Part shown: positions 16,796-22,993 of the stretch, in pieces
How positions within the stretch are numbered: the first letter of the stretch is position 1
How the letters are laid out: each line of letters starts with the position of its first letter
Assembly: GCF_900116205.1 (NCBI RefSeq)
Contig: NZ_FOZS01000001.1
Coordinates: forward strand, 930,001-994,000
Length of the DNA: 64,000 bases
Direction: 5' to 3'
From: Halostagnicola kamekurae
GTDB lineage: Archaea; Halobacteriota; Halobacteria; Halobacteriales; Natrialbaceae
Made by a program: the position numbers and the translations under genes
Notes under the pieces: generated by a model
What the model was told of the DNA's origin: nothing
Database searches by the model: none
Seen by the model: the letters and a program-made list of their open reading frames with translations, nothing else

Positions 16796-17472
16796 GCGTG
16801 ACCACCTCCTTCGACGGAGGGAAGTCTCGGGGCGAAGGGAAACGGCTTCGCAGCGAGCGGAGACGACCGCGAATCGAGCGATAGCCTCGCGAAGCGCGGG
16901 CAGGGGCGCGATCGATGCACCGCTCGAGGCGTGCATCGAACTAATCCGCTCGAGGAGGTGGGATGGGCTCGGAGTCGCCGACGGCGGTTCGGTTCGGTTA
17001 TCATGGTGTCGTCGCGTTCGCGGACTCCGGTTGAGCGTCGTGGCTGCCACCCGTCGTCAGACCGGTCGGGTCCGAATCCCCGACGGCGCTCGAGGGAGAT
17101 CCCACGGACCACAGCGGAGACGAGGAGGCTCCACGGACTATCATCAGCCCGAACACCGTGGGGTCATCAGTCGAATCAGAGCCATCAGTCGGGTCACCTT
17201 GGGGCCGCGACCGCGATTCGAACCGAACTACGCTTCCAGCCGCCGTTATACTCGTGCTTGCAGTAGCAGTTCGCAGCCGAGTGTGTCCACGTGTCGCGAA
17301 TGTGCCACGCCTCTCAGACCCCCGATAATCGGTCGGTTCGATCGGAACCGGATCGGCTCAATTTCGGAATCCACAGCTAACGCCGATGAACCGGTGGGAG
17401 ACGCTGTGTGGCGGCCAACTTGCAAACGCAACGCGAGTCGTCAAACCCGTTCCCGGTGGAAGGGCAGTCGAG
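16796..17472. promoter_or_regulatory. Divergent control region between gvpF and gvpA (~680 bp)
   Basis: No coding frame is convincing here. The region must hold the promoters of gvpFGHIJKLM (minus) and gvpAO (plus). In known haloarchaeal vac regions this spot contains gvpD/gvpE and the gvpA promoter; neither regulator gene is present. CATCAGTCG-like direct repeats occur at about 17142, 17165 and 17183. I could not assign a confident TATA box for gvpA. Confidence 0.5.
16805..16820 (-). promoter_or_regulatory. gvpF Shine-Dalgarno within a short hairpin
   Basis: On the minus strand the leader reads CCTCC GTCGAA GGAGG, then 9 nt, then the GTG start. The GGAGG is the ribosome-binding site that decides this start. 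The preceding CCTCC could pair with it in a 5-bp, 6-nt-loop hairpin and mask it. Confidence 0.5.
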
Positions 17473-17757
17473 ATGGCATCACCACAACGAAGACCGGACT
17501 CTTCGAGTCTCGCGGAGGTACTCGATCGGGTCCTCGACAAGGGCGTCGTCATCGACATCTGGGCGCGCGTTTCGGTCGTCGGGATCGAACTGCTCACCGT
17601 CGAAGCACGCGTCGTCGTCGCGTCGGTGGACACCTTCCTACACTACGCACAGGAGATCGCAAAAATTGAGAAGGCGACGACAGACGGGGAACTCGAGGAT
17701 CTCGAAGAACTCGAGATCGAACGACGCCCCGAGTCGTCGCCTCTTTCAGCCTCCTGA
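17473..17757 (+). CDS. gvpA: Gas vesicle major structural protein GvpA
   Basis: GvpA is the small hydrophobic protein whose ribs form the vesicle shell. The 94-residue protein matches the family closely through [20 protein letters not shown], then [20 protein letters not shown] and [12 protein letters not shown]. The C-terminus is about 15 residues longer than common GvpA and more acidic. The ATG at 17473 gives the typical short N-terminus ([12 protein letters not shown]). It is divergent from gvpF and followed after 81 bp by gvpO, not by gvpC or gvpN. Confidence 0.96.
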
Positions 17758-17838
17758 TAGGTCACCAGCAGATGGCCGACAGCTGACCGAAACCGGTCGA
17801 AAACGCGAACTAGACGACTGCGGAACGAACCTGTTACA

Positions 17839-18402
17839 ATGGCCGAAGCCGAGGCGGACTCGAGCGAGCGATGTCACGCGCTCACCGACGACGGTGAGCG
17901 CTGCTCGCGGCCGGCTCAGGACGACGGGTTTTGCTACCAACACGACGAGAGTGATCCAACAGTGAGCGACAGTCAAACCGAACGACAGCACGAACAGGAA
18001 CACGACCAACAGGATGGCGAAACCACCGGTTCGCAAACGGCCGCGATGGCCGGCGAGGAAACGACGGATCCCGAAGACGTCGATACGAGTTCGCTCGAGG
18101 ATGCGGACATCGAAACCGGCGATGTCGACGAGAGCAAGATCGAGGGCGTCCTCGCGGTCCGTCGAACCGTGCAGTCGACGGCGGGCGAACTCATCGGCTA
18201 TCGGTTCGACGGAGTAAGCGAAATCACGCCGACCGACGAGGGGTGGCGCGCGGTCGCGGAAGTCGTCGAACGCGCCTCGATACCGGACACGCAGGACGTC
18301 CTCGGGCGGTACGAGATCGAACTCGACGAGGACGCGGTCGTGCTCGGCTACCAGCGGATCGACCGGTATCGACGCGGCGACACGGGGTCGTTCGAGGACT
18401 GA
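17839..18402 (+). CDS. gvpO: Gas vesicle protein GvpO with N-terminal Cys/His motif
   Basis: The C-terminal about 90 residues (VLAVRRTVQSTAGELIGYRF, and VLGRYEIELDEDAVVLGYQR) are the GvpO core; GvpO is essential for vesicle formation. The N-terminus carries an additional putative zinc-binding unit at residues 12-35: Cys12, Cys22, Cys31 and His34 in CHALTDDGERC...GFCYQH, a pattern seen as a stand-alone zinc knuckle in other archaeal and phage proteins. A Gln/Asp/Glu-rich linker joins the two. It lies downstream of gvpA, presumably in one transcript. Confidence 0.88.
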   Translation: MAEAEADSSERCHALTDDGERCSRPAQDDGFCYQHDESDPTVSDSQTERQHEQEHDQQDGETTGSQTAAMAGEETTDPEDVDTSSLEDADIETGDVDESKIEGVLAVRRTVQSTAGELIGYRFDGVSEITPTDEGWRAVAEVVERASIPDTQDVLGRYEIELDEDAVVLGYQRIDRYRRGDTGSFED

Positions 18403-18470: not shown

Positions 18471-20129
18471 TCAATCGGCCGGCGATCGCGCCGAGGCGTC
18501 CTCGAGCGACGAAATCTCCGTCCCCCGCAGCGCCGCTTTCGTCTCTGGGGCGAGTTCGGTGACGGTCGACCGCCCGTCGCGCTCTCGAACCACCAGTCCG
18601 TCGTCCTCGAGCGCGGACAGGTGGTGCGTGATCGTGCTCGAATCGCGATCGAGCGCGCTCGCGAGTTGACTGTTGTTCGGTCGCTCGAGCGTCGAGAGGG
18701 CCTCGAGCACGTCGCGTTTGGCGGGTTCCTCGAGCGCCGCCTGAAGCGCGGCGTCGGTCTCCTCGGGGTAGTACCGGCGCTTGCCGTTGACTTTGGCGGT
18801 CGTGAGGAGCCCTTCGTCCTCGAGGATCTGGACGTGATGGCGAACCGTCGACAGGGAAACGCCAGCGTCTTCGCCGAGCTCCGAGAGGTAACAGCCCGGC
18901 TTCGATTCGACGGTCTCGTAGATCGTCGCTCGAGTCTCGTTCTCGAGGGGGTCCGAGTCGTCGTACCTGCTGTACTTGAAGATCGGGAGTAGCTCCCACG
19001 GGAGCGCAGCGAGCGCCCGTCGGAGGAGGCGACGGCCAGTAGCGGACCAGTTTGCCACCGCGGAACTGGCCGTCCCGGTCAGCCCCCCGCTCCCGGCGGC
19101 GCTCGCGCCGGCACTCCCAGAGCCGCCCGCGAGACCGCCGGCCGCCGCACTCGCGCCCGCCGTTCCAGCACCGCCGAGGCTGGCGCCGGCCGCGCCGATT
19201 CCACCGCCAGCGCCGGCTCCGCCAGCCGCGGCGGCCGACGCGGACACGGCTCCCAACATTCCGACGAGAACCGCATCGGACGCGGTCTTGGCGGGCCCCT
19301 GCGATGTCGGCTCTTCGCCCGCGAGCGCGCTGCCGACCGGCGACTCGTCATCGACCGTCGCGGCGACTGCCGACGAGAGGGCGGTCGGGTCGGCTGCCGT
19401 GACGCTCGAGACGGTCTTCGAAACGCTCGAGGTGGCCCCCGACGCCGTCTCTGAGAGCGCGTCGGTCGTAGCGCCGACCGGTTCCGCGAGGAACGAACCG
19501 GTTCCGTTGGCCGGTTCGTCGGTCGCCCCCTCGAGTTCGCCGGGGGTGTCTCTGAAGGTGTCAGTCGCGTTTCCGAAGCCATCAGTCGCGTTTTCGAGGT
19601 CTTTTGAGGTGTTTTCGACATCATCCGTGCCCCCTTCGAGTTCGCCAGCCGCGTTCTCGAGGCCGTCAGTAGCGTTCCCGAGGTCGCTCGTCTCGTTCGT
19701 GGCGTTCGAGAGGGGCGCTGTCGAATCGGTTTCGTCGTCGATCGATCCATCGGCGTCGTCGGTGATGTCGCTATCCGAACCGTCGGCCTCCTCGAGGACG
19801 TCTGTCGTCTCGTCCGTCCCCGCATCAGTCGTATCGCCGTCGCTCTCGGTCGTCTCGTCAACTCCCTCGCTGGTGTTATCGACCGTGTCATCGATGCTCT
19901 CGGTGGTATCGTCGATACTACCGCTCGAGTCGGTGTCGATCGCGACTGTATCGATCGAGAGGGTATCGGCCTCGAGGGCATCCACGCCGATTCGGACTGG
20001 CCCGCTTCCCTCGAGCGAACGGTCTGCCGGCGCGGAGGCGAGAGCCGGTGCCGTCGCTCCCGCGACGATCGCACAGACCACCAGCGCGGCGAGGACCGCG
20101 ACCGTTCCGCTCGAGTTCGGCGAGGCCAT
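18471..20129 (-). CDS. Signal-peptide, membrane-anchored tandem winged-helix regulator
   Basis: The 552-residue protein has a modular layout. Residues 1-40 hold a signal peptide or anchor (VAVLAALVVCAIVAGATAPA). About 40-230 is an Asp/Ser/Thr-rich, presumably extracellular region with irregular repeats such as NATDGLENA and DLENATDGFGNATD. About 285-375 is a Gly/Ala/Ser-rich hydrophobic stretch that could span the membrane. The C-terminal about 150 residues contain two winged helix-turn-helix domains (ETVESKPGCYLSELGEDAGV, then LERPNNSQLASALDRDSST). It looks like a one-component sensor holding DNA-binding domains at the inner membrane face. The ATG at 20129 is chosen because the signal peptide begins there. 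Confidence 0.75.
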   Translation of the reverse strand: MASPNSSGTVAVLAALVVCAIVAGATAPALASAPADRSLEGSGPVRIGVDALEADTLSIDTVAIDTDSSGSIDDTTESIDDTVDNTSEGVDETTESDGDTTDAGTDETTDVLEEADGSDSDITDDADGSIDDETDSTAPLSNATNETSDLGNATDGLENAAGELEGGTDDVENTSKDLENATDGFGNATDTFRDTPGELEGATDEPANGTGSFLAEPVGATTDALSETASGATSSVSKTVSSVTAADPTALSSAVAATVDDESPVGSALAGEEPTSQGPAKTASDAVLVGMLGAVSASAAAAGGAGAGGGIGAAGASLGGAGTAGASAAAGGLAGGSGSAGASAAGSGGLTGTASSAVANWSATGRRLLRRALAALPWELLPIFKYSRYDDSDPLENETRATIYETVESKPGCYLSELGEDAGVSLSTVRHHVQILEDEGLLTTAKVNGKRRYYPEETDAALQAALEEPAKRDVLEALSTLERPNNSQLASALDRDSSTITHHLSALEDDGLVVRERDGRSTVTELAPETKAALRGTEISSLEDASARSPAD

Positions 20130-20248
20130 GGTGTCATCAGCTACTGGCGAGCCAATCGTAATACCTTTTTCCGTCGTTCGGGGCTCGAGAGCGGTCGCGT
20201 CCGGCTGATCCAGCAAGCTATTTCAGCGTCCGGCGGCCGGTACTGGAT

Positions 20249-22993
20249 ATGGACTCGGCCTGTGGCCCCCCACCAGAAATGGCCGACCGGCGCGAGGAAC
20301 TGACGCCCATGATGGGCCAGTATCACGACCTCTGTGCTCGCTACGACGACGCGATCGTCCTCTTTCAGGTCGGCGACTTCTACGAAACCTTCTGCGGCGC
20401 GGCCGAGCGGACCGCCCGCCTCCTCGAACTGACCCTGACGAGTCGCGAGGACTCGACCGGAGAGTACCCGATGACCGGCATTCCGGTCGACAACGCGGCG
20501 TCGTACATCGACGACCTGCTCGAGGCAGGCTACCGCGTCGCGGTCGCCGATCAGGTCGAAGAACCGGGCGAGTCGCCCGGCGTGGTCGAACGCGCCGTCA
20601 CCCGCGTCATCACCCCCGGGACGCTCACCGAGGACGAACTGCTCGCGAGCGACGACAACAACTTCGTCGCGGCGCTGGCTCGCACCGACGACACGCACGG
20701 ACTCGCGCTGCTCGACGTCTCGACGGGCGATTTCCTCGCGACGAGTTCGACCTCGAGCGAGGCGATCGCAGACGAGATCAGCCGATTCGCCCCCGCGGAG
20801 GCGATCGTCGGTCCCGGTGTCGACGGGGCGCTGGCACCCGAAGCGTGCATGGTGACGCCCTTCGACGAATCCGTCTTCGAGCGCGAGCGCGCCGGCGAAC
20901 TGCTCGCCGACTACTTCGGCGACCCCGATTCGCTGCTCGCGGGAGACGCGGAAGTACGGGCCTGCGGTGCCCTGCTCGCATACGCGGAGTACGCCCGAGG
21001 CGGAGTCGAGGAAGACGAAGACGCCGACTCCGACGGGACGATCGAAACCGGCACCCAGACGACCAGACTCGAGTACCTGACCCACCTCACGCGGTACGAC
21101 CCGCGGGAGTATCTCCTGCTCGACGCCGTCGCGCTGCGGAGCCTCGAACTGTTCGAACCGCGGGCCGTCTACGGCCGAGAGGAGGCGACGCTGTTCGGCG
21201 TCCTCGACGAAACCTCGAGCGCGCTGGGCGGGCGGAAACTCAGGGACTGGCTTCGCCGACCGCTGCTCGAACCCGCGCGGATCGACGCGCGCCTGGACGC
21301 GGTCGAGGCGCTTACCGGCGACGTCCGCACCAGAGAGGAACTGACGGACCTTCTCAGGGATGTCTACGATCTCGAGCGGCTTATCGGACGGATCTCACGC
21401 GAGCGTGCGAACGCGCGGGATCTGCGCTCGCTGCGGGACACGCTCGCGGTCGTCCCCGAACTGCGAGACCGACTCGAGGGCGTTCGGGACGAGTGCGACC
21501 GACTCGAGACGCTGCACGCGAACCTCGATCCCCTCTCCGACGTTCGGGAACTGATCGAGGACGGCCTCGTCGCCGATCCGCCCATCGAGATCACCGAGGG
21601 CGGCGTCATCGCCGAGGGGTACGACGACGACCTCGACGAACTCCGCGAGACCGCGCGGGACGGCAAGCGGTGGATCGACGACCTCGAGGAGAGCGAACGC
21701 GAACGGACCGGCATCGACTCGCTGTCGGTCGGTTACAATTCCGTCCACGGCTACTACATCGAGGTGACGAACCCGAACCTCGAGTCCGTGCCAGAGAACT
21801 ACCAGCGCAGGCAGACGCTGAAGAACTCCGAGCGGTTCGTCACGCCGGAGCTCAAGAAACGGGAGGATGAGATCGTCGGTGCCGAGGAGCGCGCCGACGA
21901 GCGCGAGTACGAACTCTTCTGCGAGATTCGACGCGAAATCGCGGCGGCAGTCGAACGCGTCCAAGGGCTCGCCTCGGCCGTCGCGACGCTCGACGCGCTC
22001 GTCTCGCTCTCGACCGTCGCGGCCCAGTACGACTACTGTCGGCCCGAGGTTATAGGGCGGGACGAACCGCGCACGCTCGAGATCGAGGGCGGCAGACACC
22101 CCGTCGTCGAGCGAACCCAGGAGTCGTTCGTCCCGAACGGGGCCCGCTTCGCCGACGACCGCCGACTGGGGATCATCACCGGGCCGAACATGTCCGGAAA
22201 GTCGACGTACATGCGACAGGTCGCCCAGATCGCGCTGCTCGCGCAGGTCGGGAGCTTCGTCCCCGCCCGCTCCGTTCGGCTGACGCCCCTCGAGCGGATC
22301 TTCACGCGCGTCGGCGCGAGCGACGACATCGCGGGCGGGCGCTCGACGTTCATGGTCGAGATGGACGAACTCGCGACGATCCTCGAGGAGGCCGACGAGC
22401 GCTCGCTCGTCCTGCTCGACGAAGTCGGCCGCGGGACCTCCACGGCGGACGGGCTCGCCATCGCGCAGGCGATCACCGAACACCTCCACGACGAGGTCGG
22501 CGCGACGACGCTGTTTGCGACACACCACCACCCGCTGACCGAGTTGACCGACGATCTCGAGGCCGCGTTCACGCTGCACTTCGAGACGACCCAGGAAGAC
22601 GGCGAGGTCGTCTTCCACCACGACATCGCCCCCGGCGCGGCCGACGGTTCCTACGGCGTCTCAGTCGCGACCGCGGCGGGCGTCCCCGAACCCGTCGTCG
22701 AGCGCTCGCGAGAGCTGGTCGCGGAGGCGGGCGCCGAGTCCGCGACCGAACGGGCGGGAGCGGGCGACGGCGAAACGGCCGCAACTGACGACGCGATGAC
22801 TGCGGCCGACGACGCGACGACTGGAACTACCGACGCGCCCAGCGCGACCGACGACGCGACGACGGCGACCGCGGACGGCGGGGACGTGCCGACCGACGTC
22901 GCGGCCGAACTCCGCGCGCTCGATCTCGCCCACCTCACGCCGGTCGAGGCGCTGACGGAACTGGATCGATTGAAGCGGTTGCTCGAGGAGTGA
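20249..22993 (+). CDS. mutS: DNA mismatch recognition protein MutS
   Basis: The 914-residue protein is a MutS1. The mismatch-binding Phe-x-Glu lies in [12 protein letters not shown] (about residue 38-50). The connector, lever and clamp domains follow, then the ATPase with Walker [10 protein letters not shown] (about 650) and Walker [14 protein letters not shown]. Near the C-terminus a linker of about 50 residues is almost entirely Ala/Thr/Asp. The start at 20249 matches haloarchaeal MutS N-termini (xPPEMA..ELTPMM). No mutL is adjacent. The gene is convergent with nucS, which encodes an alternative mismatch endonuclease. Confidence 0.97.

Follow-up and report, generated by a model that had tools for sequence, protein, structure and literature searches.

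The gene on the reverse strand at 18471-20129 of the window (the whole stretch of DNA that was analysed, 64,000 nucleotides from a 4.1 Mb haloarchaeal genome with Halostagnicola sp. A56 as a named near relative) is best explained as encoding a membrane-tethered one-component regulator, which probably carries an N-terminal stalk outside the cell and C-terminal tandem winged helices inside it. This reading is well supported, but short of proven.

The open reading frame is a real gene. It runs from an ATG at 20129 to a TGA at 18471-18473 and encodes 552 amino acids. An alternative in-frame TTG at 20216 would give a protein of 581 amino acids, but the ATG was preferred because the homologues and the signal sequence favour it. 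In a comparison with a homologue from the same genus, the C-terminal part showed 26, 10 and 52 differences at codon positions 1, 2 and 3, indicating that the frame is coding and under protein selection, and the stalk was found to be evolving faster than the C-terminal part. The last residues, PAD(D) (18474-18482, reverse strand), are common to many homologues. The gene is convergent with gvpO (17839-18402, forward strand), tail to tail with a gap of 68 bp, and divergent, head to head, from mutS (20249-22993, forward strand), a neighbour that the original prediction left out; gvpA (17473-17757, forward strand, start assigned by homology) lies on the far side of gvpO.

Long homologues were gathered from relatives and then from 293 genomes of the order, where they were found in many genera, and we read 60 regulator loci, the majority with 19 kb of surrounding sequence and a few truncated where a contig ended. 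Most of these loci share one layout, consisting of a signal-type N-terminus, an acidic stalk, a hydrophobic segment, basic residues, a short motif and two winged helices. The stalks range from about 130 to 1,270 amino acids and are almost free of Lys and Arg, and the ends of the proteins are conserved. One homologue (L085, 9347-10807) departs from this pattern, its stalk being a long KPDKPG-type repeat rich in lysines, in contrast to the acidic stalks of the others. Another, in genome G004, is broken across two contigs close to the Gly/Ala segment (L035, 8688-9878, and L036), and its C-terminal part is in frame with an oxidoreductase-like sequence, reflecting either a rearrangement or an assembly error.

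Topology was judged from simple measures: Kyte-Doolittle (KD) hydropathy, charge, and counts of N-X-S/T sequons. Residues 1-34 (20028-20129, reverse strand) form a signal-type N-terminus with a hydrophobic core from residue 9 (KD 2.44 over 19 amino acids) followed by ALASAPA, which provides an AxA-type site. Lys or Arg precedes this segment in 37 of 42 homologues, and in the window's protein there is none. The stalk that follows, residues 35-285 (19275-20027, reverse strand), is 25% D+E and 2.4% K+R, with a net charge of -58, and contains eight sequons, compared to 2.3 in shuffled sequences (z 4.5), in agreement with the many potential N-glycosylation sites of the original prediction. The NATDGLEN-like repeats it described are also real, and can be defined as seven-residue units of the L-x-N-A-T-D-G type at roughly residues 150-205, in a repeat part taken as residues 142-210 (19500-19706, reverse strand). 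Hydrophobic residues in the stalk recur every 3.65 residues, with a signal 7.5 times random that none of 60 shuffles reached; the same periodicity is found in many close relatives, but not in all distant ones. Because of this spacing and the heptad unit, we think the stalk could form a helix or coil that bears its sequons on one face, instead of being simply disordered.

The sequon excess extends across the family, whose stalks hold 284 N-X-S/T sequons compared to 98 occurrences of the reversed pattern. Among 41 informative homologues, 39 were forward-rich and 2 reverse-rich (sign test 4e-10, a nominal value, as related sequences are dependent), and the distinct 9-mer contexts of the sequons numbered 267 forward and 95 reversed, so the excess does not come from one copied repeat. 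The reversed pattern is an imperfect control, since cytosolic control proteins were also forward-rich (73 vs 17), which makes the fraction of Asn residues lying in sequons the better measure. This fraction reached 68% in stalks, whereas C-terminal domains gave 12% and neighbouring cytosolic proteins 13%. The confinement of the excess to the stalk places the stalk outside the cell, where it is probably N-glycosylated.

Beyond the stalk is a Gly/Ala hydrophobic segment, AVLVGMLGAVSASAAAAGG (residues 286-304; 19218-19274, reverse strand), which reads DAVLVGLLGAVTASGAAAG or a near match in the close clade. The transmembrane stretch proposed for this position is conserved in homologues, but its hydropathy, KD 1.66 in the window's protein and 1.2-2.0 in most homologues, is marginal for a membrane helix; a rough estimate of the insertion energy was positive. 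The predicted second membrane crossing through this segment is thus the weakest link of the topology model. It is followed by a Gly/Ala/Ser linker and then a basic stretch, RRLLRRALAALPWELLPIFK (residues 305-385; 18975-19217, reverse strand), and by a juxtamembrane motif, YSRYDDSDPLEN (residues 386-397; 18939-18974, reverse strand), of the form YSR(Y/F)DDSDPL, which is near-invariant in 19 aligned homologues.

Profile matches on both C-terminal domains bear out the tandem winged helices. The first (residues 397-466; 18732-18941, reverse strand; PF24266, PF12840) is the best stretch for HTH_20 (6e-14) and HVO_0163_N (4e-13), and the second (residues 467-525; 18555-18731, reverse strand; PF01022, NF033788) is the best stretch for HTH_5 (4e-13) and the ArsR-type profile NF033788 (1e-20). 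Curated cut-offs were exceeded by PF24266, the HVO_0163 N-terminal HTH (49.7 bits, cut-off 31), and by NF033788, the ArsR/SmtB metalloregulator profile (73 bits, cut-off 55). A single-sequence AlphaFold model was good for the first winged helix, with pLDDT >90 over its core, and poor for the second. We rejected metal sensing, and did not file the protein as a metal sensor, as the ArsR-like domain has no Cys in residues 461-532. If DNA is bound by these domains, the C-terminal half must be inside the cell. Soluble tandem winged-helix proteins of the HVO_0163 type (PF24266), of about 174 amino acids, match only the winged-helix part of the regulator; they are homologous to its predicted cytoplasmic half at about 35% identity, and over the matched part they lack a signal, a stalk, a membrane segment and the YSRYDD motif.

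Several known systems have a similar plan. In ToxR and CadC, an N-terminal OmpR-type winged helix is tethered to the membrane and the outer domain is C-terminal. The regulator resembles them in its predicted tethering of a winged helix to the membrane together with an outer domain, but its order is the reverse, its winged helices are MarR/ArsR-like and doubled, and no N-terminal OmpR-type winged helix was among its listed Pfam matches. ArnR/ArnR1 of Sulfolobus acidocaldarius is an archaeal membrane-bound HTH regulator; in ArnR the HTH is N-terminal, two membrane segments lie at the C-terminus, and a putative HAMP and sensor domain is also present (PMC6396743). This order is reversed in the window's regulator, where no HAMP was found. 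The closest fit is to the transmembrane transcription regulators, an established class in which a DNA-binding domain and a membrane segment share one chain in a one-component layout (PMC10269533). Here the profiles and the single-sequence model place a DNA-binding domain on the chain, along with at least one predicted membrane segment (the N-terminal one, which might be cleaved, and the marginal second one), and we suggest the protein is best filed in this class, with its action on transcription a prediction. It differs from those regulators in its long, glycosylation-prone repeat stalk, its signal-type N-terminus and its C-terminal tandem winged helices. GvpE and GvpD of Halobacterium and Haloferax are likewise encoded at a gas vesicle cluster, but GvpE is bZIP-like and GvpD is a P-loop protein (PMC4390858, PMC9501494), and no sequence relation to the regulator was seen.

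In a competing topology, the N-terminal segment, N-out, would be the sole membrane span, and the acidic stalk and the Gly/Ala segment would form a cytoplasmic linker. Acidic proteins are usual in the cytoplasm of haloarchaea, the second segment is only marginally hydrophobic, and two short relatives of about 245 amino acids (L092, 9062-9802; L093, 9454-10191) have intact winged helices and a single N-terminal hydrophobic segment, with no stalk or second segment in their sequences. We nonetheless consider this arrangement distinctly unlikely, as it leaves the strong excess of sequons in the stalk alone, and the near absence of Lys and Arg there, at odds with a cytoplasmic location; moreover, the basic n-regions favour N-in, AxA-type sites are present, and the second segment is conserved with basic residues after it. 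The same features, together with the intact winged helices, support the original prediction of a single chain with a surface region on the outside and two DNA-binding domains within the cell.

In the tethered, two-crossing regulator, a Sec-type signal sequence would export the N-terminal part, and the acidic, probably N-glycosylated stalk with its helical periodicity would project outward from the membrane, either lying in the S-layer or passing through it. The chain would re-enter through the weakly hydrophobic Gly/Ala segment, and a flexible linker would bear the two winged helices in the cytoplasm, where they are predicted to bind DNA. The stalk might sense cell-surface conditions, or that it has itself been cleaved, and could thereby change how the DNA-binding part is tethered or paired, or whether it is released. 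The small-residue Gly/Ala segment is compatible with a substrate of regulated intramembrane proteolysis, but is not diagnostic of one; rhomboid and site-2 proteases are encoded in the window's genome, but are no evidence for release, because every control genome has them. To our knowledge, proteolytic release of the DNA-binding part, if true, would be the first in archaea. Little is known of how information passes from surface to genes in haloarchaea. Position suggests the gas vesicle genes as candidate targets and the gene neighbourhoods of relatives suggest secreted proteases, making this conserved and easily recognised family a source of concrete candidates for regulators of gas vesicle clusters without gvpDE (PMC4390858) and of halolysins (PMC6085418).

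That the regulator takes the place of GvpD/GvpE in controlling the neighbouring gas vesicle genes is a doubtful proposal, although the adjacency that prompted it is real. The gas vesicle cluster immediately adjoins the gene, a profile search found no GvpD domain (PF07088) in the window's genome or among the regulator's listed Pfam matches, and clusters of this kind are reported to lack gvpDE, with their expression described as an open question (PMC4390858, PMC3403918). The cluster lies beside the regulator in 27/60 loci, with the regulator convergent with gvpA-gvpO; on the tree this adjacency label needs at least five changes, and it appears in three lineages. The same adjacency recurs in family f6, where the gene context differs and other genes intervene, and one genus (g11) keeps it although mutS is gone. 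Against this, many of 40 further gvpA loci with no adjoining regulator still have gvp beside mutS, indicating that gvp-[regulator]-mutS is an inherited block from which the regulator dropped out, and we therefore rejected the adjacency, which mostly reflects this block, as independent proof of function. Co-occurrence was also rejected as a link, since by hand count the regulator is present in 22/57 genomes of the family with gvp and 2/6 without, which is no association; the gvp-less genomes G036 and G089 are among those that keep the regulator. GvpD was found in only 7/293 genomes, none of which has a long regulator homologue; mutual exclusion therefore holds, but in too few genomes to mean anything. 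The connection to gas vesicles is plausible, but inherited gene order accounts for most of it, and it is weaker than the gene's position by itself would imply.

A search for the regulator's operator found none. Upstream of gvpA there are two copies of a conserved element, a distal copy CTTGCAGTAGCAG (17257-17269, forward strand) and a proximal copy CTTGCAAACGCAA (17419-17431, forward strand), and the element in the form CTTGCANNNGCAR occurs only five times in the 4.1 Mb genome, these two copies included. The element, CTTGCANNNGCAG, occupies the position expected of an upstream activating sequence. At gvpA it is conserved throughout the family, whether or not the regulator is present, and its equal presence in regulator-less genomes led us to reject it as the regulator's specific operator; it is possible that it is a site for some other gvp activator. 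Upstream of the regulator gene, inspection by eye for a regulator-specific palindrome turned up only the core promoter-like GTATTACG and the side shared with mutS. There is no gvpN between gvpA and gvpO (17758-17838), unlike in many relatives, and the best genome-wide match to the GvpN profile was 29 bits against a cut-off of 266.8, suggesting that the gas vesicle cluster may be impaired.

The neighbourhoods of the gvp-unlinked homologues and those in f6 hint at extracellular proteolysis, with the family either controlling secreted proteases or being switched on by cleavage of the stalk. Subtilases (PF00082), often in tandem pairs and several of them bearing a Tat signal, are found next to homologues or in divergent orientation to them in f6 (L052, L063, L066), f17 (L069, L075, L076, L081) and f1 (L053, L090), and M14 carboxypeptidases lie beside two homologues (L053, L070). 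Subtilase adjacency was found in 5/22 genera compared to 0.69 expected from measured counts per genome within a 6 kb distance limit (P about 0.0005), in a post hoc test, as the pattern was seen before testing, with kinship reduced to genera only. The regulators of halolysins have been described as undetermined (PMC6085418). Neither the window's regulator nor its closest clade has a protease of this type as a neighbour, however; the subtilases are of two recurring types and may represent one inherited cassette, and the regulator at L053 is a short copy that has no membrane segment. We regard this coupling as rather unlikely, and the association as a lead for the family, not for the window's gene, although it is the most useful new lead. 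More speculative, and very unlikely as it stands, is a type-I membrane regulator in which secreted subtilisin-like proteases would cut the glycosylated helical stalk at the S-layer and an intramembrane protease would then cut the Gly/Ala segment, freeing the tandem winged helices as an archaeal Notch-like switch.

Two other genes recur near the regulator. A CHY zinc finger gene, absent from the short regulator-gvpO gap in the window, adjoins the regulator in many relatives or separates it from gvpO (for example L056, 4885-5223, and L089, 9005-9340), and a gene for a BrkB-type membrane protein is found beside the regulator in several families (L038, 7975-8760; L082-L084; L090).
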